IMG/VR virus record: IMGVR_UViG_3300032236_001513
Location: 1-63,107 of that record
Strand: one strand, 5' to 3'
Source: a virus
DNA: 63,107 bases
Made by a program: the position numbers and the translations under genes. The notes beneath the pieces were generated by a model, which saw nothing but the letters and a program-made list of their open reading frames with translations, was not told where the DNA came from and ran no database searches. Shown piece after piece: positions 16,949 to 53,129 of the stretch; within the stretch, counting starts at the first letter, position 1; each line of letters opens with the position of its first letter.

Positions 16949-16956
16949 TATTTATG
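16949..16956 (-). promoter_or_regulatory. Possible late promoter before folE (CATAAATA)
   Basis: CATAAATA on the minus strand overlaps the guaC stop codon (TAA), so part of the match may be chance. If used, it gives folE a leader of about 75 bases. Confidence 0.35.
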
Positions 16957-18040
16957 AGTTAGCGAACACTGCGTTAAATTGTTTATTCACGCGAACAAAT
17001 GTAGTGCATTTGCTGAGGTTCTTGAGTTCAGCAGCGCCGACATAAGTGCAAGCACTACGCAACCCACCGAGGATATCCCGCACCACTGCATCTGTTGGAC
17101 CCTTGTAAGGAATAATCACCGTCCTACCTTCACTTGAGCGATAATCTGCTACCCCGCCATTGTGCTTGTTCATAGCAGTCTCGCTGCTCATTCCGTAGAA
17201 CTTTACTAGGGTCTCAGTAGTCAGGATATCGTCACCTTCATCTGTGCAATATCCTGCCTTCCGCCAGCGATAGTGCTTCTCGCCACCGCCTTCGTCACAT
17301 CCTGCGAGCATACCTCCTAGCATGACGAAATCCGCGCCTGCACCAAAAGCTTTGGCAACGTCACCAGGGCAAGTACAACCGCCGTCAGCAATAATGTGTC
17401 CACCAAGACCATGAGCAGCATCCGCACATTCGATGATGGCTGATAGTTGCGGGTACCCCACTCCAGTCTGTATGCGAGTAGTGCAAACACTACCAGGTCC
17501 AATACCAACTTTAATAATGTCAGCTCCACGTAGAATCAACTCCTGTGTCATATCTGCGGTAACAACGTTTCCCGCAATAATCGTATGTTCGGGATACTTA
17601 TCACGAACCTTAGAAACAAAATCACCGAATGCTTCACTGTATCCGTTTGCAACATCAATGCAGATAAAGCGAAGTTCAGAATATGCAGCCAGAATTTCTT
17701 GCAGCTTAGCATAATCTGCTTCACTCGTGCCAGTGCTTACTGCAACATGGTTAGCAAAATGCATACCGTTTTCTGTTTCAGCACGTGTATAGTCATCAAG
17801 TGTATATGATTTGACAAGGCAAGTAAACATCTGATGATCGTACAAACGACTAGCCATATCAAATGTACCGACACCATCCATGTTAGCAGCCATGATGGGA
17901 ACACCTGTGTATTCCTGTCCGCTATGCTTGAACTTGTATGTGCGTTGTAGATCAACCTCCTTACGACTAGACAATGTTGACCGCTTTGGACGAATCAGCA
18001 CATCACTAAAATCAAGAAGGATTTCGTTTTCAATACGCAT
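16952..18040 (-). CDS. guaC: GMP reductase (IMPDH/GMPR family)
   Basis: 362 residues. [19 protein letters not shown] at the start, [18 protein letters not shown] with the active Cys, [21 protein letters not shown] and [13 protein letters not shown] are typical. Length, absence of a CBS insert and the C-terminal AEL region favour GMP reductase (GMP to IMP with NADPH) over IMP dehydrogenase. The ATG overlaps the TGA of the upstream glycosyltransferase (TGATG). Position next to folE suggests control of the guanine pool, perhaps limiting unmodified guanine. Confidence 0.85.
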
Positions 18041-26621: not shown

Positions 26622-26640
26622 TTTTTACGACCCAAAAAAA

Positions 26641-26663
26641 TAACGGTGAGAACCTCACCGTTA
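26641..26663 (-). terminator. Strong terminator after the outer-membrane protein gene
   Basis: A 10-bp perfect stem (TAACGGTGAG, CTCACCGTTA) with a 3-nt loop, followed on the minus strand by ATTTTTTTGGG. On the plus strand it is followed by TTTTC, so it could work both ways. Confidence 0.88.
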
Positions 26664-26688
26664 TTTTCATCATCAACGATAGTTCTTA

Positions 26689-27240
26689 TTAGAACTTGTG
26701 TGCAACAGACGCACCGATGACATCGCGGTCTACGCCGGTTAGGCTGTTATGTACGCGATAGTAGCTAAGACCCAAATCATCGTTCTTCGTTACTGCATAA
26801 GTCAAACCTGCATTGTAACGATCTTCCTTGAAGTTAGCTGCCGTGAATCCTTCACGGTGACGGATACCGACGTTTGCACTTAGAGGACCATATAGTCTAT
26901 GCTCAGCAGTAGCACCGGCACCCCAAAAGGCATAAGACTTACCTGTAGTCGTGGTGCGAGCAAGTTCGCCATACACCTTTGACTTGAATCCTGCATAGAC
27001 AGGAAGAGCATATCCAACCTTACCGACATACTTGTTGCTGATTGCTCCGCGATGGTCTGGTTGATTAGTCGTTAGTTCTGCGCCCAAGAGTGCAGGACCG
27101 GCATGAGTCCAGCCTTGAACAACGAGTTCCTTAGCGTCTGGCTTTGTAAAGTTTCTTACTTCGGCTGACAATGAATCGGCAAAGGCTGGTGCTGAGATAG
27201 CAGCCATTGCCAATGCTAATGCTACGATTACCTTCTTCAT
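26689..27240 (-). CDS. Small outer-membrane beta-barrel protein
   Basis: 183 residues. A clear signal peptide (MKKVIVALALAMAAISAPAFA, cut after A21) and alternating strands with GYALPVYAGFKSKVYGE-like and VGIRHREGF patterns, ending in a terminal phenylalanine (ASVAHKF) as in outer-membrane barrels assembled by BAM. About eight strands would fit. It is last in the curli-like region but has its own late promoter in a hairpin (27279-27304). A role in blocking receptors or in surface change is speculation. Confidence 0.75.
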   Translation of the reverse strand: MKKVIVALALAMAAISAPAFADSLSAEVRNFTKPDAKELVVQGWTHAGPALLGAELTTNQPDHRGAISNKYVGKVGYALPVYAGFKSKVYGELARTTTTGKSYAFWGAGATAEHRLYGPLSANVGIRHREGFTAANFKEDRYNAGLTYAVTKNDDLGLSYYRVHNSLTGVDRDVIGASVAHKF

Positions 27241-27278
27241 TTAGTTCCCTTTTTGTTGAAGTACCTGTCAATCATCTT

Positions 27279-27304
27279 GCAGGCTATTATTATTTATAGC
27301 CTGC
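27279..27304 (-). promoter_or_regulatory. Late promoter inside a hairpin
   Basis: GCAGGCTA (27279-27286) and TAGCCTGC (27297-27304) form an 8-bp stem around a 10-nt loop; on the minus strand it contains the exact T4 late motif TATAAATA (27291-27298). Transcripts from this promoter would lack the 5' arm; read-through transcripts would carry the hairpin before the AAAGGG site of the outer-membrane gene. Confidence 0.65.
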
Positions 27305-27320
27305 AGATACGTGAATTTTT

Positions 27321-29369
27321 TTATTTAGAAGTAGCCCTAAAGACTCCATCCCAATCTTTAGGTGGCGCAGATTGATCTTTCATTCTCTCTTCCATAGCCC
27401 TATAGTATCCAGCTAATTGGCCTTTCCAGAGATTTTCCATGTGAGAAATCAAATCAATCGCATCATTCCATTCGCCTGCACGATACTTATCTAAGAACAT
27501 ATGATGGAAGTTTTCTGATATCGGATCCTTAGTTTCTAGAACCGTGTATATACATGTAGGTTCTTTCTTTCCCTTCACGGCGATCAAGTCTAGCTCTACT
27601 ACTTGATACTCATCGCTAACATATTCAGCAGTCTTTGGTCCAATAATTATCTTGACGCCGTACGGTTTAGACTGACCTTCGAGGCGAGATGCAAGATTAA
27701 CGCCGTCCCCCAAACAAGTATAGTCGAAACGCTGATCACTACCCATATTACCAACAACCACAGTATCAGTATTGATACCGAGACCCATTCCAAAAGCCGG
27801 GACTCCCTCAGCCTTAATTTCTTCATTGAATTTCTCCAGGTCATTTAACATCTGAAACGCAGTTTTAACAGCATCCTTAGCATGTTGCTCGTTACTAAGC
27901 GGTGCATTCCAAAATGCCATCTGAGCATCTCCTATATACTTATCTAGTGTACCGTTGTTCACAAGAATAGCTTTGGTCATAGTAGTCATGTATCGATTCA
28001 TGATCTTAGTCAATCCCTGCACATCTCTACCATAGTGTTCAGAGATAGTTGTGAATCCCCTGACATCAGTAAACATGATACTGAGTTCAACCTCATCCCC
28101 GCCTAGTGCTAATAACTCTGGATTCTTTTGAAGTTTAGCGACAAGATCCGGGCTTAAGTAAGTACCGAATTGCTTTTTAATCTGTTGCTTTTGTAAGTAT
28201 TCACTGATAAACTTCACGCTGTATACATGCAAATAAATAACAAGGGCAGCAAGAAGATTAAAAGAAATATCAAATAATATTTTATTATGACTGAACAAAT
28301 AGATGGGTGCATACACATATCCTGCGATCAGAATACCGATCCAGATGATAGAGTATCGTACATTCGACAGACCAATGACTGCAACTGAAAGGACAACAAA
28401 TGCAGCAAGATCAAGTAATCCAACCCAATTCGGAATCGAAACTGAATCGCCATTTATCAGGGTCTGAAGAATGGACGCTTGCAACTGATGGGGATACTGG
28501 GCACCTGCTGGAGTCGCTACAGGGTTGGCTACTCCATTCGCGCTTACACCAAGAATTACGATTTTCTTTGTTAGATCAGGAACTTTATCCCCAATCTCAA
28601 ATGATTGAAACTTATAGTTTGGATTGATAAATACTCTGCCGTATTCGTCGGTATTAACTTTTCCAAATTGGGGGACACGCAATGCTTCAACACCAGCCTG
28701 ACTTATTTTCGCCTGATAAGAAGGATCACCCGCTAGAACTCTCAGCACTTCAAGAGAGAATGCAGGATAGTATTCATTCTTTGAAATTCCTATTAACGGA
28801 ATTCGACGCACAACCCCGTCTGTCTCTGGAAGAGAAGATGCTATACCGACGCCTGCGGATCCTTCTTGAAGCTCTGGAATGTTATCAAGAACACAGGGAT
28901 AGTTCGGGAGAAATTGCGTCGGTTGGCCGTCACCAATTACAGCAACGCCTGTACGACGAGTCTTCTGATTATCCCTAGTACATTTATCGGATAACGTTTG
29001 GCTTAATACAACTGGATTCTTTTTCAAAGAAGCCGCCAGGATATCATCACCGTTGAATCGATCCTTTTCAGGAAACATCACAGTGGTAGCAACCAATCCA
29101 GCATTAGCACTATACAAATCATCTATGATCTTTGCATGGACATCTCTAGGGAACGGCCATTGACCATACTTTTCGATAGCCTTTTCCCCGATATTAGCTA
29201 TCACGACATGTTCTGACTGTACTGGTTCACCGAGCATCAAATAGTCATAGAATTTTAATCGCATAGCATCTACGAGATATGGGTTGCTTAATTTAATCAC
29301 TAATAGAAGTGCAAAGGTTAACAATGCCAACCAAGGACTCAATAGTATTTTCTTTAGTTGACTCATCAT
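27321..29369 (-). CDS. CHASE2-domain class III adenylate cyclase
   Basis: 682 residues. One N-terminal membrane helix (about 12-30), a periplasmic CHASE2 sensor domain (about 31-305; KFYDYLM, QWPFPRDVHAKIIDDLY), three further membrane segments (about 315-385), then a cyclase domain: ELSIMFTDVRGFTTISEHYG (D435) and DKYIGDAQMAFWNAP (K477, D481), followed by FDYTCLGDGVNLASRLEG. The metal Asp pair and Lys/Asp specificity residues are present, so it should make cAMP from ATP. It follows the curlin and FecR genes; CHASE2 cyclases often neighbour FecR genes in bacteria. Very unusual in a phage. Confidence 0.9.
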   Translation of the reverse strand: MMSQLKKILLSPWLALLTFALLLVIKLSNPYLVDAMRLKFYDYLMLGEPVQSEHVVIANIGEKAIEKYGQWPFPRDVHAKIIDDLYSANAGLVATTVMFPEKDRFNGDDILAASLKKNPVVLSQTLSDKCTRDNQKTRRTGVAVIGDGQPTQFLPNYPCVLDNIPELQEGSAGVGIASSLPETDGVVRRIPLIGISKNEYYPAFSLEVLRVLAGDPSYQAKISQAGVEALRVPQFGKVNTDEYGRVFINPNYKFQSFEIGDKVPDLTKKIVILGVSANGVANPVATPAGAQYPHQLQASILQTLINGDSVSIPNWVGLLDLAAFVVLSVAVIGLSNVRYSIIWIGILIAGYVYAPIYLFSHNKILFDISFNLLAALVIYLHVYSVKFISEYLQKQQIKKQFGTYLSPDLVAKLQKNPELLALGGDEVELSIMFTDVRGFTTISEHYGRDVQGLTKIMNRYMTTMTKAILVNNGTLDKYIGDAQMAFWNAPLSNEQHAKDAVKTAFQMLNDLEKFNEEIKAEGVPAFGMGLGINTDTVVVGNMGSDQRFDYTCLGDGVNLASRLEGQSKPYGVKIIIGPKTAEYVSDEYQVVELDLIAVKGKKEPTCIYTVLETKDPISENFHHMFLDKYRAGEWNDAIDLISHMENLWKGQLAGYYRAMEERMKDQSAPPKDWDGVFRATSK

Positions 29370-29375
29370 GGATCC

Positions 29376-29843
29376 TTAATGTTTTATATAACTATATCCA
29401 GTACAAGCTCCTACTGCACAAAAAATACTCATGGATGCAGTATCACTTGCAATAAGGCTGTTTTGAACTACAGTCACTCCTGTATTAGAACTATTGACAG
29501 ATAGATTGAATATTTTTTGCGGGGTACCAGTTTGCGTGATTGAGATAGTGTTGTTGCTAGAAGGAACAGTCAACTGCAATACGTGGTTTCCGTCTTGTTG
29601 TGTGGTTGATATATTGTTGTTGATTCCCTGTATAGTTGCAACAAGATTACTATTATTATTTTGCTGGCTAGTTACCGCATTGTTATTGCCAACAATGATT
29701 AGACTCTCATAGTTTGAATCACCCACAGATTGAGTGATAATCACTGATGTATTGTTCCCTACAGATTGATCGATATAGATTTTATTTTGAGCTAGTACAG
29801 GTGTTACAGAGAGTAGTAGCAAGAACGGTATCAGTATTCTCAT
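29376..29843 (-). CDS. Small curlin-repeat protein (possible nucleator)
   Basis: 155 residues. Signal peptide MRILIPFLLLLSVTPVLA, then repeats rich in N, Q, S and T: VIITQSVGDSN, VTSQQNNNSN, ATIQGINNN, ISTTQQDGNH and ISITQTGTPQ, matching the curlin Gln/Asn beta-strand-turn pattern. It could be a fibre subunit or nucleator like CsgB. The C-terminus carries two cysteines (IFCAVGACTG), unusual for a curlin. The start overlaps the FecR-gene stop (ATGA). Confidence 0.7.
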   Translation of the reverse strand: MRILIPFLLLLSVTPVLAQNKIYIDQSVGNNTSVIITQSVGDSNYESLIIVGNNNAVTSQQNNNSNLVATIQGINNNISTTQQDGNHVLQLTVPSSNNTISITQTGTPQKIFNLSVNSSNTGVTVVQNSLIASDTASMSIFCAVGACTGYSYIKH

Positions 29844-30985
29844 TTAGGCGGGGCTCCGTTCTGCACGATAGTTATTGTTCCTTGGGGTCTTCCATCTCCC
29901 TGTGTAGTCCATTTTTGGTTTGCAAAATTGTAAGAATCTATAATTCCATTCTGAGAAACAACAACTTCAACCTCACTGTTCTTTGGTAACCATACAGTAG
30001 CGGCTTGTAATTTATCAGGAGATAACACTGAATACACCCATCCTACTTGAATCATCTTTTTGCTGAGAACCGGTGATACATTTGTATATATTAATTTTTT
30101 AGGGAATTCTCCGTTTATGTCTACATACACTTTAGTTAAAGTGTCAGCAGCAGTCTGTTTAGTTTGTAGTGCAACCGCCACCTCTTCAATGGAAAATCCA
30201 TCCGAATTAGGATCAGCATTATTGTCAGCAGCAGCTTGTGCTGGGTTGTTTGCTGCCTTTGCTGAATTCTTTGATAACTTTGCTAGGCTCAATCCGTTTG
30301 TGGTTGTAGGAGATGATATCTGTAGTGAGTTATTGACTTGTTTTAGCGTCATGTCTACTTTCACCGGCGGAGCAGGTGGTGTAAAATTATTTTCAACCAT
30401 AGTTGCTTGAAATGGCTGATTGAGTGTGACTAATCCAGCCGCAGTTAAAACCTCGATAGATCCACTTGTACAGTCATCTGTTATCTTAGTTGGGTCCTTG
30501 TCATCATAACAATTTGGAAGTAAGATGACTGTTGTTTTACCTATCTCATCTACTGACATTAGAAAATCCGTACCTCTGACACCTATGGTTGCAGTGGGTG
30601 TTCTAATATTTACTCCGTTCGAATTACCATGTGCAATTCCACCAGATGCATATCGTACAGTTCCTAGAGCAACTTTGAGTCCTAGTTTACCCTTATTTGA
30701 ATTTCCTCCGTCATATACAAAGTCATCAATGAGTAATCTACTATTTTCAGTGATGTTTACTGTAGTAGCATCAGCAAATGTGATCTTGAATCTACCCTGA
30801 GAATTGGTAGATACTGTGTCATTCTTTTCTATTGCGGATCCATTGCCGGCCGTAATAACACCAGCAGGACGCTTGATCGTGCCCATGCCGCGTGATTCTG
30901 TTATCGACCCTATGCTAGCAAAAGCAGCATGGGCCGATAACAAAAATAGAAGATTAATGGCCAGTTTTAATATTAAACGTGCCAT
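29840..30985 (-). CDS. Secreted FecR-domain protein
   Basis: About 381 residues from ATG at 30985 (a GTG at 30997 is also possible). Signal peptide to about residue 23. Residues 24-165 form a FecR domain (GRFKITFADATTVNITENSR, GVNIRTPTATIGVRGTDFL). The rest is low complexity (Ala/Asn) then a beta-rich end. FecR domains occur in periplasmic regulators and in exported proteins beside CHASE2 cyclases. There is no membrane anchor after the signal peptide, so it is probably exported. Role unknown. Confidence 0.8.
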   Translation of the reverse strand: MARLILKLAINLLFLLSAHAAFASIGSITESRGMGTIKRPAGVITAGNGSAIEKNDTVSTNSQGRFKITFADATTVNITENSRLLIDDFVYDGGNSNKGKLGLKVALGTVRYASGGIAHGNSNGVNIRTPTATIGVRGTDFLMSVDEIGKTTVILLPNCYDDKDPTKITDDCTSGSIEVLTAAGLVTLNQPFQATMVENNFTPPAPPVKVDMTLKQVNNSLQISSPTTTNGLSLAKLSKNSAKAANNPAQAAADNNADPNSDGFSIEEVAVALQTKQTAADTLTKVYVDINGEFPKKLIYTNVSPVLSKKMIQVGWVYSVLSPDKLQAATVWLPKNSEVEVVVSQNGIIDSYNFANQKWTTQGDGRPQGTITIVQNGAPPK

Positions 30986-31733
30986 TTGTTCCGACACTCT
31001 TGATGTTGATTATAGTTTCAGAAGGACCGTACTGTTGTGTAGTGACGTTGTTTCCAGAACCAACAAGATCAACAAACAATGAGTGACCGTATGTTCCTCC
31101 GGTATCAGACTGCGTTACATTGAATGTATTGTAGTCACCGGTAACTAATAGTGTTTGTGATGAATTAGGTGCATTAGATGCAATAGTATAAGCGTTATTG
31201 TTGCCTGTGTTGTTTATAGTTTGAGTGATATTAGAAGCTGAACCGTGGAATGCTAGCATGTTGTTGTTACCAACAAATTTATCATTCAAGTTCAATCCAT
31301 TACAATTTGCATCACCCTCATAGATTCCGCAACGAATTGTAGCAGAGTTGTTATTACCTAATTGCTGAATAGTAGTAGTTGTGCCACTCTCTGATCCAAA
31401 AGAACCGAGTATTCCCATTAGCAATGAATTCGTATTTCCGGTTTGCACTACAGTGACTGTCTGATTATCACCACGTAGGTAGATAGGATCAGTCATTGTA
31501 CCAACAACATTAGTAGTACCGGTCTGTTGGATGTTCACGTTTACATGCTGACCTGCTTGATTGATGTATACTTTATTTGTAGTTGCTACTGTATTAGCTT
31601 CAGTCTCATTAGGTGATGTAGCAATGATTGCAGGTGGATTAGGTTGAGTAGGAAGAACTGCAACAGCCTGAGCAAATGCAGTGCTAGATACTAATAACGA
31701 ACCAAGAATTAGTGCATATTTTATTATTTTCAT
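30954..31733 (-). CDS. Curlin-repeat protein (CsgA-like)
   Basis: 259 residues. Signal peptide MKIIKYALILGSLLVSSTAFA. Repeats with the curlin signature Q-x-G-x-x-N: VNIQQTGTTNVV, VTVVQTGNTNSL, TTIQQLGNNNSAT, ITQTINNTGNNNAYTI and FNVTQSDTGG. Curlins are secreted unfolded through CsgG and form amyloid. The gene follows csgG with an AAAGGA site eight bases before the ATG. It is longer than E. coli CsgA (151) and less regular. Confidence 0.78.
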   Translation of the reverse strand: MKIIKYALILGSLLVSSTAFAQAVAVLPTQPNPPAIIATSPNETEANTVATTNKVYINQAGQHVNVNIQQTGTTNVVGTMTDPIYLRGDNQTVTVVQTGNTNSLLMGILGSFGSESGTTTTIQQLGNNNSATIRCGIYEGDANCNGLNLNDKFVGNNNMLAFHGSASNITQTINNTGNNNAYTIASNAPNSSQTLLVTGDYNTFNVTQSDTGGTYGHSLFVDLVGSGNNVTTQQYGPSETIINIKSVGTNGTFNIKTGH

Positions 31734-31735
31734 CT

Positions 31736-32575
31736 TTATAATCCTTTTTTGATTGTATTGGATTTTTTATAATGCCAAAATCCTCTCTTCTCGCCGTCTT
31801 TTATGAGTTGTGCTACACCGAGTTCAATTGCTGATCGAATAGCATAACTTCCAGGTTCATTTGATGTTTGTTGACCATCTAGTTCGAATGCTTTAGTACC
31901 TAAATCAAAGAATTTAAAGACAGTAATTCCTTCAGAGGTAGATATTACATTCTTACTAATAGTAACACTATCAAGTATTTCACCTGTTTGTGTTGATACA
32001 AGCCGTAGATTAATCACGACCATATCTTCACTATATTGGGTGTTTGGCCCAATTCCTAAATAACGAACACCATTACCACCGGTTTTAGTGTTGCTATTAT
32101 AATCGATAATGCCTCCCTCGACAATGAGTCCTGCTACCATTAACGGAGATAATGCTTTGGCTTTGTCACCATATTCTTGTTCTCGCATCTGACGTATAAG
32201 CTGGCGCTCTTTAATGATGCTATCAATACCTACACGTTCAACTGGTTTGAACCATTTGCCGCCGCCCGCATCAGCTAATGTTTTAATCAGATATGCATCA
32301 GCACCCTGTGTTACGGCAGTGCTAAAGCTACTCACAGTAGATGAGGATTTGCGTTGTCCGGTTTTATCAGTGAATGAATACACTGCGATGGGAATAGGAG
32401 GACCATCTAGATCAGGAATATCATCGAATATTTTTTTATTCGTATATGATATTACTGATGGTCTAGTTCGAAAGATTGCGGTATCCTGATTTAGGATAGG
32501 ATTTATTGCGCCTACGCAGCCAGTTAGAAGCAAGGCAACCAGCGTTAGTGTCAGGAAAGTTAATGACTTCTTCAT
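31736..32575 (-). CDS. csgG: CsgG-like curli secretion channel lipoprotein
   Basis: 279 residues, the CsgG size. Lipoprotein signal MKKSLTFLTLTLVALLLTGC with the lipobox cysteine at 20. RTRPSVISYTNKKIFDDIPD, PIPIAVYSFTDKTGQRKSS, then VGIDSIIKERQLIRQMRE and the YLGIGPNTQYSEDMVVINLR strand match CsgG, which forms a nonameric outer-membrane pore for curlin. AGGAGG precedes the ATG. The order csgF-csgG-curlins makes a coherent secretion unit; CsgE and CsgC are absent from the window. Confidence 0.93.
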   Translation of the reverse strand: MKKSLTFLTLTLVALLLTGCVGAINPILNQDTAIFRTRPSVISYTNKKIFDDIPDLDGPPIPIAVYSFTDKTGQRKSSSTVSSFSTAVTQGADAYLIKTLADAGGGKWFKPVERVGIDSIIKERQLIRQMREQEYGDKAKALSPLMVAGLIVEGGIIDYNSNTKTGGNGVRYLGIGPNTQYSEDMVVINLRLVSTQTGEILDSVTISKNVISTSEGITVFKFFDLGTKAFELDGQQTSNEPGSYAIRSAIELGVAQLIKDGEKRGFWHYKKSNTIKKGL

Positions 32576-32586
32576 TGAACCTCCTG

Positions 32587-33045
32587 CTAGAATGCAAATG
32601 TTGCGATAGGAACTGTTACTACAGTTTGATTGCCGGTGCTATCAACAACAGTCAATGTAACATTCGTTCCTGTTTTTATATAACTAATAGTATTTCCGTC
32701 TAAATTAAATATGCCCGAATTAGAAGCAGTGCTACCTGTTTGAAATAAATTGTTACTCAGTTGGGTGGCTAGTTGTGCATAGACCTGGCTAGTAAACAAA
32801 GAGATAAATTTGTTCAATGGGGTATTCGCTGCGGCTGCGGCTGCGGCTGCTTGTGCAGAAGCTAATGCATTCTCATTCGCTTGTTTATTATTTTGTTCGA
32901 TGTTTTGAACAGCTATCACATGATTAGACCAACCTACACCGTTAAAGGCAGGGTCTTTAAATTGTTGAACAAGTGGATCAGCCATTGCAGGTGATGCAAA
33001 GCAAATTAGTCCTAATAGAGAAAGTATTTTTATTTTTATTTTCAT
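32587..33045 (-). CDS. csgF: CsgF-like curli assembly factor
   Basis: 152 residues. Signal peptide to about A22, then DPLVQQFKDPAFNGVGWSNH, where CsgF inserts its N-terminus into the CsgG pore, then a helical Gln/Ala segment, and ISYIKTGTNVTLTVVDSTGN as the C-terminal sheet. In E. coli CsgF caps the pore and couples it to fibre nucleation. The gene precedes csgG by 11 bases. It ends in TAG; read-through would add five residues. Confidence 0.83.
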   Translation of the reverse strand: MKIKIKILSLLGLICFASPAMADPLVQQFKDPAFNGVGWSNHVIAVQNIEQNNKQANENALASAQAAAAAAAANTPLNKFISLFTSQVYAQLATQLSNNLFQTGSTASNSGIFNLDGNTISYIKTGTNVTLTVVDSTGNQTVVTVPIATFAF

Positions 33046-33068
33046 TATTTCTCCCCTAATGTGTATTC

Positions 33069-33407
33069 TTAACCTTCACCGCTTGCTGCTGTATGGTCAT
33101 CTTCTGATAATTTTTCATACTGTGGTTTATTAATCTTCTTCTCTGCTTCTACTCGTTCGCGTTCTATAGTCTTACCACGCAAGTGTAAAACAGTGTTGAC
33201 TTTTTGATTCAATCGAATCAAGTCATTGTCCAACATTCTGATACGATCAATCAATGCGATTAGTGTTGTGTTGGCTTCTCCTAATACAGGTTTGATCTCT
33301 TTAGTAGCCCATTCCCAGACGTAATAGATCAGGTATCCCATACCTGCAGCAGCTACTGTCGGGAATCCATACTTATTAATTAGTTCTGCTATGTTTCCGC
33401 TCATCAA
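33069..33407 (-). CDS. Small membrane protein B, paralogue of its neighbour
   Basis: 112 residues. One membrane segment (GFPTVAAAGMGYLIYYVWEW, about 14-33), then a helix (LIALIDRIRMLDNDLIRLNQ) and a charged tail. It aligns with the protein from 33404-33685 (YGFP.AA.GAGY, and IxLxDRxxxLxxDxIR), so the two are a tandem duplication. The N-terminal helix with a cytoplasmic helix resembles small holin-like proteins, but that is a structural impression only. It overlaps its neighbour's TGA. Confidence 0.65.
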   Translation of the reverse strand: MMSGNIAELINKYGFPTVAAAGMGYLIYYVWEWATKEIKPVLGEANTTLIALIDRIRMLDNDLIRLNQKVNTVLHLRGKTIERERVEAEKKINKPQYEKLSEDDHTAASGEG

Positions 33408-33685
33408 TCTCTCCTTGCGTCAGATTTACCGTCTGCTCTTGCGATACGATCTACGTCGGGCTTTAAGCCGAGTGCGTTTGATACTACGGTATCGATTCTA
33501 ATCACATCGTGATTCATTGTTTTTACACGATTGTCAAGAGAGACGATTATTCCCTTCATGCCACTGACGCTTCCGGTGACACCTGCGAGGATAAATTTTA
33601 GGGTTAAGAATACGAAATATCCTGCTCCAATTGAAGCTGCGATTGGGAATCCTACTTCGGCTACTAGTTTAAAGAAATCTCCCAC
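33404..33685 (-). CDS. Small membrane protein A, head of the curli-like operon
   Basis: 93 residues from GTG at 33685 (AAGGAA upstream). Membrane segment about residues 9-33 (EVGFPIAASIGAGYFVFLTL), then amphipathic helix VSLDNRVKTMNHDVIRIDTV. Paralogous to the gene at 33069-33407. The pair lies first in the operon with a late promoter (33743-33750) and a leader hairpin, which puts the following csgF-csgG-curlin genes under late control. Holin-like or export-accessory role is possible. Confidence 0.63.
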   Translation of the reverse strand: MGDFFKLVAEVGFPIAASIGAGYFVFLTLKFILAGVTGSVSGMKGIIVSLDNRVKTMNHDVIRIDTVVSNALGLKPDVDRIARADGKSDARRD

Positions 33686-33715
33686 GCACGCCTTCCTTGT
33701 TTTCCATAAAGCTAT

Positions 33716-33735
33716 GCCCTAGCTCTCACTAGGGC
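33716..33735 (-). other. 5' leader hairpin of the curli-like operon
   Basis: GCCCTAG and CTAGGGC form a 7-bp perfect stem with a 6-nt loop. It begins within a few bases of the expected start from the late promoter at 33743-33750, so it would form the 5' end of the mRNA and could protect it from decay. Confidence 0.6.
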
Positions 33736-33742
33736 ACAACAT

Positions 33743-33750
33743 TATTTATA
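33743..33750 (-). promoter_or_regulatory. Exact T4 late promoter (TATAAATA)
   Basis: TATAAATA on the minus strand, upstream of the first gene of the csgF-csgG-curlin operon, in a non-coding gap. Confidence 0.68.
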
Positions 33751-38708: not shown

Positions 38709-40433
38709 TTATTTAAGAACACCCTGTGCTAAGAATACGCTAGTACTATTAGTCAATGACAATGCTCTAGTGATATCATTTTGTGATGTTGTTGCACCGG
38801 TAGCTGGATCAACCTGAAAGAAAAACAACCAAGGACTTTCAAGTGTAATGATATCCGTAACAGCATGAATCTTGAAGCGAACCATTTTCAGTGTTTCACC
38901 TAGCGGCAATGCTACTGTCGGCTTGCTAATCTTGAGTGTACTAGTTGTATTATCTAACATGATAAACGGGTTATATGCTGCTTCGGTAGTTGAATCTTCA
39001 TAACTAATAGTCCATGTCACAGTTGTAGACGGATGAAGAGTAGTATATGGAGCAACATCTATGATAGTATTAACATTTAATTCAATATCATTAATATTAT
39101 CATTAAATGCACCTAAATATAAATCTAATGCAGTTGCTTGAACATCTTGTGCACCAACCAAATGCACGATTCTATTTTCTGTTTCTACGAAATTAGTATG
39201 ATCGAAAAGAATCGCATCTTTAGTAGATACATCTAGTAATTTCTTTGAAAGATCGGGGAACGGAACTTCTCCATCAAATAGTGCTGCAATCTGCGCAGCA
39301 ACACCTGTTGCATAACCTGCAGAGAACGAGGTGCCTGAAATTATTGCATATCCTGATTTGCTTGCGACTAAAACATTGTCTCCAGGTGCAAATATATCTA
39401 GCATATTACCATAGTTTGTAGTAAGTCCGCTATCCGATGGAGCAATATTATTGAAGCCTGCAGGAATATCGTACTTGTCAATTGCACCAACCGTGATCAC
39501 CGCTGGCATTCCTGCCGGAGTTTGGGTTGCAACATCAATACCTGTATTACCTGCAGAACAAATTACAGTAATGCCTGCATCAAGTAATTCTTGAAACTTG
39601 CTCTCAATCCAACTATTCTTATCAATAGACCAGCTTGCATTTACAATTCTAGTCATATTTGGATTTTTCTTAGCTTCGGTTATGATTGCTTCTAGTGCAG
39701 CACCTATGTTAAGAAGTGAAGGAGTATAATTAGGTTCCATAATCTTCACGCTACGTAACTTAATATCACGAGCAATGCCTACATTTACCCCTGCAATACA
39801 TGAAGCAACTTTAGTACCGTGACCAGTCACATCATCAAATGCCGTAAAATCTGAAATCTTCCAAAAATCATCATGATCTAAATTAGCAAATTCAGGGTGA
39901 GTCCAGTCTACTCCGGTGTCAATGATATAAACTTCTGGTTTACTCTTTACTACTAGACTATCATAATATGTAAAGCTAGTTAATAGAGGACGATATGAAC
40001 TTGCTATACGTATTCTAGCCCACTGACCTTCAGTGCCGGTTGGATCAACTACTTCAATTGAAGTAGTTGAATTACCTGTTACTGTAGAGACCCCGTGAAA
40101 TCCCATCGGAGTCAATTCAACTGCATCCAAACTGTTAACTTTATCAAATAATGCAAGACCTTGTGTACTAGTGATATGATAAAATCCTTTTCCCAAATCT
40201 TCATTCACTATTACCAGAGGTGCTACATCTGCTGATGTTGGATCACCGTTCATTATGAATTCTACAGGGTCACTGGTTTCTTGTACGAAGCTGACAGCAT
40301 TGGTGTCAGCTTTTGCTTTTGTTAACTTTTCCCAAGTGATGCTGATAGTAGCATCTGGTTCCGCAGTTAATTTTACTGTCTTTGCAAAAGCAGCACAGTT
40401 CTCAGCAGTGTTAAACGTTACAGTAACGGACAT
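38709..40433 (-). CDS. Subtilisin-like serine protease
   Basis: 574 residues. A 160-residue N-terminal beta domain, then a complete S8 catalytic domain: IIDTGVDWTHPE (D172), GHGTKVASCIAG (H205), ICSAGNTG (oxyanion N296) and ISGTSFSAGYATG (S369). A C-terminal beta-rich domain of about 150 residues (VTWTISYEDSTTEAA) completes it. No signal peptide is apparent. It may process a virion protein or act in lysis or host takeover; the late-type TAAATAC variant lies upstream near 40458. Confidence 0.9.
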   Translation of the reverse strand: MSVTVTFNTAENCAAFAKTVKLTAEPDATISITWEKLTKAKADTNAVSFVQETSDPVEFIMNGDPTSADVAPLVIVNEDLGKGFYHITSTQGLALFDKVNSLDAVELTPMGFHGVSTVTGNSTTSIEVVDPTGTEGQWARIRIASSYRPLLTSFTYYDSLVVKSKPEVYIIDTGVDWTHPEFANLDHDDFWKISDFTAFDDVTGHGTKVASCIAGVNVGIARDIKLRSVKIMEPNYTPSLLNIGAALEAIITEAKKNPNMTRIVNASWSIDKNSWIESKFQELLDAGITVICSAGNTGIDVATQTPAGMPAVITVGAIDKYDIPAGFNNIAPSDSGLTTNYGNMLDIFAPGDNVLVASKSGYAIISGTSFSAGYATGVAAQIAALFDGEVPFPDLSKKLLDVSTKDAILFDHTNFVETENRIVHLVGAQDVQATALDLYLGAFNDNINDIELNVNTIIDVAPYTTLHPSTTVTWTISYEDSTTEAAYNPFIMLDNTTSTLKISKPTVALPLGETLKMVRFKIHAVTDIITLESPWLFFFQVDPATGATTSQNDITRALSLTNSTSVFLAQGVLK

Positions 40434-43487: not shown

Positions 43488-44036
43488 TTATCCCTTAAGG
43501 TCCATCAGATACTTAAGAATGTTCTCCGGTGAGGATTCACCGTAAGGGTCAGTGGCACAATTATGTTCGATGCCTGGTTCAATAAACCACTTCTCGATCC
43601 TGCCGTTATCAACAATAGCAGCATAGCGCCAAGAACGGACACCGAATCCGAGATTGTCCTTCTGAACAAGCATATTCATGTTAGCAGTGAACAAGCCAGA
43701 CCCATCAGGAATAACCTTGACATTCTGCAATCCTTGATCCTGTGCCCATTTGTTCATGACGAATGAATCATTGACGGACAAGCAGTAGATATCATCGATG
43801 CCGAGAGCCTTGAAATGCTCATAGTTCTGTTCGAAACCCGGTAACTGATATGTCGAACAAGTAGGTGTGAATGCTCCGGGGAGCGAGAATAGAATCACGC
43901 GCTTACCGGCAAACAGATCATAGGTTGTGACATCTTGCCAGCGATACGGATTCAGTTCTTCAGTAGAATCGTCACGGACACGAGTCTTAAAGACTACGGC
44001 AGGGACGAGACTGGGTAGTTGAGATTCATCAATCAT
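43488..44036 (-). CDS. Peroxiredoxin (Prx5-like)
   Basis: 182 residues. LPGAFTPTCSTYQLPGFEQN contains the peroxidatic Cys in the T-x-x-C motif; IDDIYCLSVNDSFVMNKWAQ and FGVRSWRYAAIVDNGRIEKW complete the Prx5/AhpE-type fold. It reduces hydrogen peroxide or organic peroxides with thiol help, and the glutaredoxin encoded at 48748 could be a partner. GGAGAAAAT precedes the ATG, right behind the tRNA. Confidence 0.9.
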   Translation of the reverse strand: MIDESQLPSLVPAVVFKTRVRDDSTEELNPYRWQDVTTYDLFAGKRVILFSLPGAFTPTCSTYQLPGFEQNYEHFKALGIDDIYCLSVNDSFVMNKWAQDQGLQNVKVIPDGSGLFTANMNMLVQKDNLGFGVRSWRYAAIVDNGRIEKWFIEPGIEHNCATDPYGESSPENILKYLMDLKG

Positions 44037-44056: not shown

Positions 44057-44131
44057 TGGCGCTTCCGACAGGAATCGAACCTGCTGTCTTGGGCTTTAGA
44101 GACCCTTGCTATGCCAGTTAGCCTCGGAAGC
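44057..44131 (-). tRNA. tRNA with CUA (amber-suppressor) anticodon
   Basis: 75 nt including encoded CCA. Acceptor GCTTCCG/CGGAAGC, D-stem GCTA/TAGC with loop ACTGGCA, anticodon stem AGGGT/GCCCA (outermost pair mismatched, then 3 GC and one G-T), anticodon loop CTCTAAA giving CUA at 34-36 with U33 and A37, T-stem GCAGG/CCTGT with loop TTCGATT, discriminator G. Position 8 is A instead of U. The loop is identical to that of classical amber suppressors such as supF. It lies directly upstream of the peroxiredoxin gene, downstream of the ORF at 44190. The charging amino acid is not readable. Confidence 0.85.
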
Positions 44132-48982: not shown

Positions 48983-50083
48983 TTATAAAGTTGGTAATTC
49001 ATTGTAATCAAGAGTATCGCTCATGACTCCGATAACGTAGTTAGTTGATTCTGATTCTTGTAGTGCTGTTTGCTTTTTGGAGGTATCCGTATGCTTGTTG
49101 AACCAAGGGATAGGAGTAGTCTTTGGTGCTGGATTCCAGTATTTAATGCCGATCTGTTTAAGAGCGTCTACGGCAGTATAGTCTACAAAGTCGATAAGAA
49201 TGCTAGCGTTAAGACCAATGACAGGACCCTTCTTGAAAAGATACACTGCCCAGTCTTTTTCTTCACGGATCACATCCTCATAAATCTGTCTAACTTCAGC
49301 TTCGCAATCAATCTTTGCTTGAGCAAAGCGAGGATCTTCCTTGACAACCTGATTGATGATCCATGCCGTCCATTCCTTGTGCAAGAGTTCATCTTGCAGG
49401 ATCAGACTGATGATATTGCCGTTGCCCATAAAAATCTTATTCTCTACCATTGCGAGAGAAGTAGCAAAAGATACCATGAAACGGAATGCTTCAAGCGCAT
49501 ATGATGCATGAAGTGCTAACCAGATCGCATTGATATGCTTTTGTTCATTCACATATCCGTTGACTTCCTTGATGCAATTTAGTTCATGCAAGTCATCATA
49601 GTACTTGCCGATACTCGCTGCCATGCTAATGATTTCGTGTGTTTCATGAATTGTGTTAAACACTTCCTTCGGAACGTTATAGATGTTACGAATGATGTGT
49701 GAATAGGAACGTGAATGGATGTTCGTCTCAAAGAAGCCCCAGTTGTACATGAGTGCTTCTAGCTCAGGAATAGAACAGACAGGAGTGAATACCTGAGTAG
49801 GTCCGCGACCCTGAATGCTATCTAGTGCAGTCTGCCTAAGTAGGTTGCTTGTAAAGATATGTGAGATTGATGCAGATGCATCTTTCATATCATTAGCATC
49901 CTTAGTCAATGAGATTTCTTCTGGTACCCAAAAGAATCCACGAGCAGTCTGTTCGATCTTCTGTAGCTTTTGATACTTGACTTCTTCGAAACGCTGAACA
50001 GTCACAGGACCTTCTGGATCCAAAAACATCTTGCGTTGAAGGTAGTCGGTCTTAGTGGTTAGGTCGTACTGTTCTTTGCTCAT
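48983..50083 (-). CDS. nrdB: Ribonucleotide reductase small subunit
   Basis: 366 residues. FETNIHSRSYSHIIRNIYNV carries the iron-ligand Glu/His and a candidate radical tyrosine; HETHEIISM and LQDELLHKEWTAWI supply other ligands, ending in DTLDYNELPTL, the C-terminal tail that docks on NrdA. With NrdA it makes dNDPs for replication. The ATG overlaps the end of the HNH gene (ATGA), so its translation depends on that junction. Confidence 0.93.
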   Translation of the reverse strand: MSKEQYDLTTKTDYLQRKMFLDPEGPVTVQRFEEVKYQKLQKIEQTARGFFWVPEEISLTKDANDMKDASASISHIFTSNLLRQTALDSIQGRGPTQVFTPVCSIPELEALMYNWGFFETNIHSRSYSHIIRNIYNVPKEVFNTIHETHEIISMAASIGKYYDDLHELNCIKEVNGYVNEQKHINAIWLALHASYALEAFRFMVSFATSLAMVENKIFMGNGNIISLILQDELLHKEWTAWIINQVVKEDPRFAQAKIDCEAEVRQIYEDVIREEKDWAVYLFKKGPVIGLNASILIDFVDYTAVDALKQIGIKYWNPAPKTTPIPWFNKHTDTSKKQTALQESESTNYVIGVMSDTLDYNELPTL

Positions 50084-50757
50084 TCTTTATTCCATTCTGG
50101 GTCTTGTGTTGGAATCCAACCACTTCTAAAATATTTTACCATATTCATATACGGTCCTATAACCTTGCTTTCATTAATATAACACTTATCGTTCACTAAT
50201 GTATATAACTTACAATACGATGGTTTATGGTTTTCTACCCAAACCTTGTAAATCGTTTCTGCTTGTTTCCAAACAGATTTAGAATAATCTGTTGCTCTTG
50301 GATGATTCCAGGGTTTAACACCAGAACATGGATTTTTTCCACCCGTCATTCGCGTAGACATTGATTTTATTGTGTCGTCCGAAAAGTTAACTTTATTTTT
50401 ATAGCCTGTTATACCCTTGTTCCATGGCCCGTTTAAGATTGACGGGTTATTAGGACCACGCATATACTCAGAATATTGTCTCTTTAACCAACCGTATGAC
50501 TTGTTGTTTCTCTGTTGTTCACTATTTGATGATAACATAAACATAGCGGCTTTTACCAGTTTTATATTGTTAGGATACAGTTTAACTAATAGCAGATGAC
50601 ACAAATAATGTTCTTCAGGAGTCAATGATACTAAGTTAGTTGCGTCATCTGTTCCACCAAGACATTTAGGAACAACATGATGCTTCTCACTATATCCTTC
50701 TAATATTCTACTTTGTCCTCTACTTACTAATGTATCGTATATTTTTTGATAGTTCAT
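50080..50757 (-). CDS. HNH homing endonuclease
   Basis: 225 residues. EKHHVVPKCLGGTDDATNLV (H26-H27, N41) then SLTPEEHYLCHLLLVKL form the HNH zinc/catalytic site; the rest (WNKGITGYKNK, SGVKPWNHPRATDYSKSVWK) is the DNA-contact NUMOD-like region. Free-standing mobile endonuclease inserted between nrdA and nrdB, a common location in T4-like phages. The ATG has AGGAG six bases upstream, just behind a hairpin containing a late promoter (50769-50792). Confidence 0.88.
   Translation of the reverse strand: MNYQKIYDTLVSRGQSRILEGYSEKHHVVPKCLGGTDDATNLVSLTPEEHYLCHLLLVKLYPNNIKLVKAAMFMLSSNSEQQRNNKSYGWLKRQYSEYMRGPNNPSILNGPWNKGITGYKNKVNFSDDTIKSMSTRMTGGKNPCSGVKPWNHPRATDYSKSVWKQAETIYKVWVENHKPSYCKLYTLVNDKCYINESKVIGPYMNMVKYFRSGWIPTQDPEWNKE
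50080..50757 (-). mobile_element. Homing endonuclease gene insertion in the nrd operon
   Basis: The ORF splits nrdA from nrdB and carries its own hairpin-late promoter control. No self-splicing intron core was looked for or seen; the flanking nrd genes are complete, so it is a free-standing insertion. Confidence 0.7.
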
Positions 50758-50768
50758 ATGAATCTCCT

Positions 50769-50792
50769 GTAAACTTATTTATCATAGTTTAC
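50769..50792 (-). promoter_or_regulatory. Late promoter inside a hairpin before the HNH gene
   Basis: GTAAACT (50769-50775) and AGTTTAC (50786-50792) form a 7-bp stem around a 10-nt loop whose minus-strand sequence includes GATAAATA (50776-50783). The hairpin lies just upstream of the AGGAG site. Transcripts from nrdA would carry it and could hide the ribosome site; transcripts starting at the late promoter would not. The layout matches T4 homing endonuclease and lysozyme gene control. Confidence 0.7.
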
Positions 50793-50813
50793 AGAAAACT
50801 TATAGTTTACATA

Positions 50814-53129
50814 CTATAACTTACAACTCTCGCAGGAATCTTCATCTTCAAAGAAGTCAATAGCCTCAAGTGGAGCCGCATCTTCTAGTTCCTTTGAACC
50901 CTGTTTATTAATCAATGAATAATAGAAAGTCTTGATTCCCCAAATCTGAGCCTGCATGAGATTCTTAGCTATGATCGTAGTAGGAACCTTACGATCAGGG
51001 AAGTGTGCAGGGTTATAGAAAGTATTAGTAGAGATAGACTGATCCACATATGCAGCTAGAACAGCGGCAGTCTTGAGATACGGAGCACAATCTGTCTGAT
51101 CCCACATCAACTGATACTTGTTCTTCAGCTTTTGATATTCAGGGACGACCTGCGTGAATGATCCTGCTTTTGATTCCTTGACAGAGATCAACGACATAGG
51201 CATCTCAATGCCATTAGTAGAGTTGATAACGACTGACGAAGATTCAACCGGAGCAATTGCCATGACAGTTGCATTACGAACACCGTGCTGCTTCATTTCA
51301 GCACGTAGATGTTCCCAGTCTAACTCTGGTGCAAAGTTTGCGAGTTCATTAACTCCTTTTGCTCTGAGTTCCCAAGGAAAAATACCCTGACCATAACGAG
51401 TCTTATCAGAATGCAGACACGCGCCGCGCTCCTTAGCTAGTTCAACATTAGCTTCCATCAAATAGTATGATTGATGTTCTGACCATGTCTTAACATCTTG
51501 TAGAGCATCTGAATCCCCATACTTGTAGCCGCGCTTGGCGTGCCAGTATGCAAGATTTGTCACCCCGATACCAATGGGTCGAATCTCATCATTTGATAAC
51601 TTTGATTGGATAGATAGAAAATCCTGATAGTCAAGAATGTTGTTAAGGCTACGAAGCAGAATGCGACATGCCCTACGCATATCTTCTGGATTACGGAATG
51701 CACCCCAGTTTATCGATCCTAAAGTACAGAGTGCAATCCTTCCTTTCTCATCGTCCAAACGGCGGAAAGGCTTAGTGGGAAGCAAAATCTCACAACACAG
51801 GTTGCTCTGATAGATCGTATGATATTCCGGATCGAAGGGACCCTGATTCATCACGTTATCGATGAACACAAGGTAGATACGACCGGTGTCGGTGCGTTCC
51901 TTTAGAATGCCACCCTTGAACACATCTTCTGCTGCCATAGTTTTCTTGCGAAGGTCCTTACGCTTCTCATACTTCATATAGAGTTCTTCAAACTTTGTGA
52001 TGTTTGAATAGAATGCTTCATACAGATCCGGCACTTCATTTGGATCAAAGAAGGTTATGTTTTCTTTGTTCTTGAATCGTCTCCAGAACAATGCTGACAG
52101 CACGACTCCGTAGTCCATGTGCCGCACCCGGGTTTCCTCAGTTCCTTGATTGTTCTTAAGAACGATAAGATCATCAAACTGATGATGCCAGATTGGATAA
52201 AATACTGTAGCACTTGCATTGCGAATTCCTCCTTGTGAACAAGAACGCAGATCACCGAACCACTTTTTTAGAAAAGGAATCATACCAGTGTGCATGATCT
52301 CTCCGCCACGAATGGGTGAACCTAGCGGACGAAGCCTACCAATCTCAAGACCGATGCCAGCACGTTTGCTAGCATACTTTGCCATCATCTCTCCGCTAGC
52401 AAATATGCTATCCAAATCATCGTCACTGCGGATAAGTACGCAACTGCTGAACTGTTTAGTCGGAGTGCCAAGACCAGCCAGCACAGGTGTAGCAAGAGTA
52501 AATAAACCGTCCGATGCGGCCGAATAGTACTCCTTGATATATCGTAGTCTAGCTGAATTAGGTTCTTCTTTATGGAAGACAGTTGCCGCAGCAACCATAT
52601 AACGAACCTGAGGGGTCTCGTAGATTTCTTTGGTAGCTCTGTTTCTAACAAGATACTTCTCTATTAGCTGTTCGATGGCGGCGTATGAGTACTCTTCATC
52701 TTTTGAATGGTCGATGATATCGTTCATCTTATTCCAGTCATCTTCGGAATACCATTCTAAGAGTTCCGAAGTGTAAAGGCCCACCTCAACGTTCTTCTTC
52801 ACTATCTCATACAAATGCGGTGGCTGGTATGCTCCGTAAACATCTTTACGGAGCATAGATAAACGTTGCTTTCCTGCAACATATTGATAATTAGTATGTC
52901 CTATCGTAGGGTTGTTTTCTACATCAATAAGATCAACTATCGCTCTAAGGGTAAGGTCATCAATCTCTCTAGTCGTGATTCCATCATAAAAATGAGGATG
53001 TGCCTTGATCTCAATCATAGACTGACTTACATCTGCAATTCCTCTACAAATCTTAGATATCTGCCCTTGCCACTTTTCTAGAGCTAGTAGCTCTACACTT
53101 CCTGATCTTTTAGTTACATTGATAGTCAT
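50814..53129 (-). CDS. nrdA: Ribonucleotide reductase large subunit (class Ia)
   Basis: 771 residues. Thiyl-site and substrate region: TKQFSSCVLIRSDDDLDSIF, YQSNLCCEILLPTKPFRRLD, ALCTLGSINWGAF, VMAIAPVESSSVVINSTNGI, with the N-terminal cone region before. The end, EDEDSCESCKL, is the redox-active C-x-x-C tail that glutaredoxin reduces. It provides dNTP precursors with NrdB. It ends in TAG right after the tail, so suppression would extend the redox tail by 13 residues. Confidence 0.95.
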   Translation of the reverse strand: MTINVTKRSGSVELLALEKWQGQISKICRGIADVSQSMIEIKAHPHFYDGITTREIDDLTLRAIVDLIDVENNPTIGHTNYQYVAGKQRLSMLRKDVYGAYQPPHLYEIVKKNVEVGLYTSELLEWYSEDDWNKMNDIIDHSKDEEYSYAAIEQLIEKYLVRNRATKEIYETPQVRYMVAAATVFHKEEPNSARLRYIKEYYSAASDGLFTLATPVLAGLGTPTKQFSSCVLIRSDDDLDSIFASGEMMAKYASKRAGIGLEIGRLRPLGSPIRGGEIMHTGMIPFLKKWFGDLRSCSQGGIRNASATVFYPIWHHQFDDLIVLKNNQGTEETRVRHMDYGVVLSALFWRRFKNKENITFFDPNEVPDLYEAFYSNITKFEELYMKYEKRKDLRKKTMAAEDVFKGGILKERTDTGRIYLVFIDNVMNQGPFDPEYHTIYQSNLCCEILLPTKPFRRLDDEKGRIALCTLGSINWGAFRNPEDMRRACRILLRSLNNILDYQDFLSIQSKLSNDEIRPIGIGVTNLAYWHAKRGYKYGDSDALQDVKTWSEHQSYYLMEANVELAKERGACLHSDKTRYGQGIFPWELRAKGVNELANFAPELDWEHLRAEMKQHGVRNATVMAIAPVESSSVVINSTNGIEMPMSLISVKESKAGSFTQVVPEYQKLKNKYQLMWDQTDCAPYLKTAAVLAAYVDQSISTNTFYNPAHFPDRKVPTTIIAKNLMQAQIWGIKTFYYSLINKQGSKELEDAAPLEAIDFFEDEDSCESCKL

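Follow-up and report, generated by a model that had tools for sequence, protein, structure and literature searches.

A run of nine genes in the IMG/VR virus record IMGVR_UViG_3300032236_001513, whose whole stretch of 63,107 bp is called the window here, is read with somewhat better than even confidence as a late phage-encoded type VIII (curli) export cassette combined with a FecR-CHASE2 envelope sensor that would make cyclic AMP (cAMP). A previous sequence-only reading had described a close-spaced curli operon on the minus strand, and all nine open reading frames (ORFs) were confirmed at positions 26,689-33,750 of that strand, close-set or overlapping. Their order was the small membrane proteins TM1a and TM1b (the transmembrane, or TM, pair), CsgF, CsgG, curlin 1, FecR, curlin 2, the CHASE2 cyclase and a small exported protein, followed by a terminator-like hairpin. 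The parts and their order point to the phage-borne amyloid export line proposed in that reading, and from them we infer export itself; of the coupling to cAMP signalling that it suggested, the linkage between curli genes and cAMP synthesis is supported at the level of the genes.

Recurrence of the cassette and its export genes

The same gene order recurred on scores of viral contigs, so the run was taken to be phage DNA. A search with CsgG kept 80 loci, in which the cassette recurred. A search with TM1b, independent of CsgG, found at least 588 confirmed viral contigs, and the cassette was also present in most of the 80 loci taken from them. The loci compared were mutually related, and the contigs were fragmentary. 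CsgF, curlin 1 and FecR were found in all of the 35 CsgG loci with enough flanking sequence, and the cyclase and the TM pair were found in 32 of these 35. The possibility of host DNA misassembled into the contig, which the sequence-only reading had raised against itself, was excluded by this recurrence and by the same DNA polymerase adjoining the cassette in the relatives G001 and G002. A cellular donor was rejected as well. The nearest “bacterial” matches (L084, L085, and L087) were phage-type cassettes in bacterial metagenome-assembled genomes (MAGs), on contigs shorter than 11 kb, and were probably phage contigs misbinned with bacteria. In the longer bacterial CsgG contigs (L088-L090), neither FecR nor the cyclase was in view. 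Genes inserted in the cassettes of relatives encoded a signal-bearing Endonuclease_NS protein, a GT4 glycosyltransferase, a lipase, and a calcineurin-like phosphoesterase, which gave circumstantial agreement with envelope change and the exclusion of other phages.

All features of the run lie on the minus strand. CsgF (32587..33045) matched Pfam PF10614 (4.7e-16), and CsgG (31736..32575), the lipoprotein that forms the outer-membrane secretion pore, matched PF03783 (2.8e-52) with an invariant lipobox cysteine, so that both assignments held. The profile of the CsgG family aligned over its length with the structures of E. coli CsgG (7.5e-68). In the profile alignment, the stretch KPYPASNF of E. 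coli CsgG, which we take to be the pore constriction, was replaced by KPSSTLSSF in the phage CsgG, and the tyrosine of the constriction was therefore absent.

The large curlin-repeat protein, curlin 1 (30954..31733), was supported by its family. The window protein alone had no Pfam match; Curlin_rpt was matched by 12 of the 22 aligned family members (best 1.3e-7), and the family profile found solved curlin chains in the PDB (8c50, 2.3e-6; CsgA in 8enq, 0.029). The AlphaFold2 model was a strand-turn solenoid with half repeats of about 11 residues and a predicted local distance difference test score of 81. A Foldseek search with this model returned generic β-solenoids only, none below E 0.001. 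The ORFs of curlin 1 and FecR overlapped in the window. The small curlin-repeat protein, curlin 2 (29376..29843), showed the expected repeat, with a period of 22 residues (z 4.9, compared with 3.8 for the 99th percentile of the shuffle maximum), and its homologues were recognized by position and by hidden Markov model (HMM). It has only 155 aa in the window, compared with about 350-760 aa in most of the relatives having curlin 2. The reported lack of CsgE and CsgC was also seen here. CsgE had no match in the window and none above the cut-off in 30 relatives, with a positive result for the E. coli control, and CsgC had no match in the 63-kb fragment. CsgE reportedly raises the output of curli export and is not essential for it (PMC7029224).

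The FecR protein, the CHASE2 cyclase and the TM pair

The exported protein encoded between the two curlin genes (29840..30997) contained the FecR domain that had been proposed for it (Pfam FecR, 2.7e-12), and the model of this domain matched the anti-sigma FecR/PupR domains. The model of residues 28-95 (approximate limits) also resembled the cell-surface anchoring domain 5ix9, with a Foldseek E of 0.013, an HMM E of 0.06, and 33% identity across 61 columns. The protein carried a C-terminal extension, which was modelled as a separate β domain. In the phage FecR proteins, this extension had an IxIxQ-type ending ([ILV]x[ILVTF]xQ) in 124 of 127 cases; the ending was present in 101 of the 109 distinct phage proteins and in 40 of 1,629 other ORFs, so that its rate in the phage proteins was about 38 times that in other ORFs. 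Profile comparison did not support the C-terminus as a true curlin repeat (hhalign probability 1.3%).

The cyclase (27321..29369) was composed of a CHASE2 domain (Pfam, 2.6e-36), a transmembrane segment, and a class III adenylate cyclase domain (Guanylate_cyc, 2e-19). The residues for metal binding, base recognition, and transition-state stabilization were intact (D435, K477, D481, T551, N558, and R562), which placed the protein among the class III cyclases and agreed with the intact catalytic acids described before. In 35 genomes from a single bacterial order, 45 of the 51 CHASE2 domains had FecR within 3 kb, against 0.13 expected; this was the order of a Paracoccaceae MAG, which we took to be Rhodobacterales. 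The same clustering is found in Campylobacterota (PMC9239204). FecR next to CHASE2 is a general bacterial pairing, but few of the short loci from the order to which a Polaromonas MAG belongs showed the adjacency, and the pairing is thus not universal.

Since FecR and the CHASE2 cyclase form a general pair, the phage FecR need not concern iron. This bears on a rival reading, in which CsgG is an import pore that admits nutrients, siderophores, or cofactors, and FecR regulates iron uptake (PMC9599517; uptake also in PMC7029224). The name of FecR and the lack of a recognizable CsgE gate would suit such a pore, but the FecR-CHASE2 pair requires no role in iron, neither a FecI-type sigma factor nor a TonB receptor could be recognized among the cassette genes, and the curlin proteins would be left unexplained. 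The import reading was accordingly considered very unlikely.

TM1a (33404..33685; 93 aa), with one predicted transmembrane segment, and TM1b (33069..33407; 112 aa), in which the core RIRMLDNDLIRL was almost invariant, both belonged to the family phrog_18771 (4.6e-33 and 3.1e-30, respectively), in line with the two paralogous membrane proteins of the sequence-only reading. The alignment of TM1a, with 13 members, contained 20 invariant columns, and the conservation of the core was high in both alignments. The genes fronting the cassette have been called “histidine kinase” (PMC9599517). This identity was rejected, as no kinase family of Pfam was found among 34 members. The H-box-like histidine of MNHD in the TM1a alignment was lost in L046, L047, and L082. 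The nearest match of the pair was YvrJ, which was found in 8 of the 34 members and was insignificant (best E 0.064).

Of the 60 TM1b loci that were found without CsgG and extended 5 kb or more downstream, 57 contained a cyclase within 5 kb. Three arrangements of the TM pair and the cyclase were seen among the loci, and in G009 the two stood together with CsgG about 20 kb away. Rearrangement of the cassette thus leaves the TM pair and the cyclase together. The separation of both by about 20 kb from CsgG could also suggest that the cyclase uses cAMP chiefly to influence host transcription, with no dependence on any fibres, and that only joint transfer links it to the curli genes. Against this, most loci keep the FecR and curlin genes side by side and next to the cyclase, and the FecR and curlin 1 genes overlap in the window, so we regard an independent cyclase as improbable.

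Late-promoter-like signals, a possible role in lysis and the phage backbone

A T4-type late-promoter-like box, TATAAATA, was found as an exact match at 33743..33750 at the front of the run. Of 173 distinct upstream regions, 146 had the TAAATA core within 110 nt before the leading gene, compared with 22 expected from shuffles; because the upstream regions are related, this count is not a probability. Before internal genes the core was much nearer to chance (73 of 501, with 51 expected). The box and this statistic together support the late expression that had been proposed for the operon. TATAAATA alone was not enriched in the window (6 versus 4.4 expected), and a promoter and terminator scan gave results at the chance level. 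Between the box and the first gene lay a leader hairpin (33700..33742; folding energy z = -5.9). Leader hairpins with a different stem sequence were also seen in L004 (z -7.2) and L006 (z -6.4), as judged by mononucleotide shuffles.

The presence of a late promoter core before the cassette is also compatible with a lysis device, as proposed for the CsgGF of the phage Melnitz (PMC9004378), in which a gated outer-membrane pore of CsgG and CsgF and a holin-like TM pair time or help lysis and no fibres are made. The TM pair has proteins of holin size with a transmembrane segment and a coiled-coil-like part, and eight of its members showed the weak YvrJ matches; in addition, the CsgE gate was not found and the constriction of CsgG was altered. 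However, nearly all loci with the pore also kept the curlins, FecR, and the CHASE2 cyclase, none of which is needed by a lysis device. Melnitz was reported to have no curlin genes, yet its record annotates two curlin-repeat proteins, and no endolysin was recognized in the cassette or in the sampled inserts. Lysis was judged unlikely, to about the same degree as the independent cyclase. Lysis and import are the main rivals of the export reading, and neither accounts for the kept curlin, FecR, and cyclase genes.

The backbone of the window was assessed from its DNA polymerase, which had 81-85% identity to those of G001, G002, and G006, 53-64% identity to those of contigs up to 383 kb, and 30-36% identity to those of the pelagimyophages HTVC008M and Melnitz. 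The best matches among isolates were the jumbo phages Phosso (47%), Vibrio phage 2.275.O (46%), Atu_ph07 (45.5%), and 121Q-type phages (42%). Based on the matches of this one gene and the size of the related contigs, the window probably represents part of a jumbo-type phage genome. The similarities of polymerase and cassette were in conflict in several relatives: L048 had a polymerase 82% and a CsgG 55% identical to those of the window, whereas the values were 30% and 67% in L018 and L039. Either the cassette or the polymerase has therefore moved between backbones.

The last gene of the run (26689..27240) encoded a signal-peptide protein, which had been described as a small outer-membrane barrel. 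The signal-peptide protein was present; its match to Porin_4 was weak and below the cut-off (E = 0.0052), so the barrel is possible as judged from sequence. A second exact TATAAATA box preceded this gene (27291..27298), and a homologue followed the cyclase in just two further loci (L100 and L109). The gene is thus probably a transcription unit of its own, with its own promoter-like box. An intrinsic-terminator-like hairpin with a 14-bp stem closed the run (26636..26667; -18.6 kcal/mol for the fold of 26,636-26,690).

Elsewhere on the same fragment, genes for a subtilase (38709-40433), a redoxin (43488-44036), a dehydrogenase (16952-18040), and ribonucleotide reductase (48983-53129) were found. 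A tRNA gene with the anticodon CUA (44057-44131, minus strand), labelled tRNA-Pyl by ARAGORN, possibly encodes an amber-suppressor tRNA. TAG stops were present in 6 of the 56 counted window genes, and their read-through extensions were short (2-20 aa). In the close relatives G003 (C1:46280-50697) and G011 (C1:72956-76791), about 1-1.6 kb of extra sequence, possibly an intron or another insert, broke the DNA polymerase gene around residue 540-570.

Proposed mechanism and comparison with known systems

In the export reading, late phage transcription would supply the CsgG/CsgF pores and the curlin subunits, and curlin would leave the cell through CsgG/CsgF without CsgE and build fibres on the infected cell. 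By analogy with the bacterial pairing, FecR in the periplasm would be the partner of the CHASE2 sensor and would report curlin export or the state of the envelope to the cyclase, raising cAMP, with the TM pair working together with the cyclase. The benefit to the phage, whether a block of superinfection, aggregation, biofilm, release, or the timing of lysis, is a matter of inference; the likeliest would be that the infected cell is remodelled, in both surface and state, against competing phages, or that neighbouring hosts are made to aggregate. A further proposal is that FecR senses curlin subunits or the state of the pore with its extra C-terminal β domain and signals through CHASE2 with help from the TM pair, that host and infection are adjusted by cAMP to successful fibre export, and that the unit travels between jumbo and smaller marine-type phages; it is put forward tentatively and is doubtful as a whole.

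Several observations weigh against the export reading. The cassette-bearing phage Melnitz showed no clumping (PMC9004378). Three CsgG loci (L042, L043, and L045) had neither the cyclase nor the TM pair in view, and these components may therefore be dispensable for export. Some cassettes were without curlin 2, and the C-terminal motif of FecR had no demonstrable homology to curlin, with the hhalign probability of 1.3% given above.

Among known systems, the nearest isolate DNA polymerases to that of the window belonged to the jumbo phages of the Rak2/121Q/Atu_ph07 type (42-47%), and none of these isolates was returned when the phage collection was searched with CsgG or TM1b. A narrow literature search turned up no paper on jumbo phages carrying a curli cassette. 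The E. coli csg system shares CsgG, CsgF, and the curlin repeats with the window, which differs from it in having no match to CsgE or CsgC, an altered pore constriction, and the added FecR and CHASE2 cyclase. In the bacterial FecR-CHASE2 pairs of the Rhodobacterales-type order and Campylobacterota, the FecR gene adjoins the CHASE2 cyclase as in the window, whereas the sampled genuine bacterial FecR proteins, several of them cut by the edge of the locus, did not have the phage [ILV]x[ILVTF]xQ ending. Tying FecR to the cyclase instead of iron makes the gain of the phage from the cassette directly testable.

The closest counterparts are in pelagiphages. CsgF and CsgG were described in pelagimyophages in 2020 (PMC7029224) and in Melnitz in 2022 (PMC9004378), and a complete cassette, containing FecR and adenylate cyclase but no CsgE, was described in podo- and myophages in 2022 (PMC9599517). 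Since this pelagiphage cassette was published in 2020-2022, that of the window is not new in kind. Melnitz EXVC044M and HTVC008M carry the full cassette on one strand, as the window does, with 43-47% identity in CsgG and 39% in the cyclase. The type VIII secretion cassette of HTVC023P-type podophages and pelagimyophages (PMC9599517, PMC7029224) has the same genes in the same order, CsgF-CsgG-curlin-FecR-curlin-cyclase, fronted by one or two small proteins. The window differs from it in its jumbo-type backbone, its shortened curlin 2, and its small proteins, which are not histidine kinases, so that the kinase label of two highly conserved cassette proteins is corrected. The promoter evidence for late expression is new, and the cassette, nearly always as a multi-gene unit, is now seen in jumbo-like phages and on hundreds of viral contigs in addition to the phages of SAR11 and OM43.

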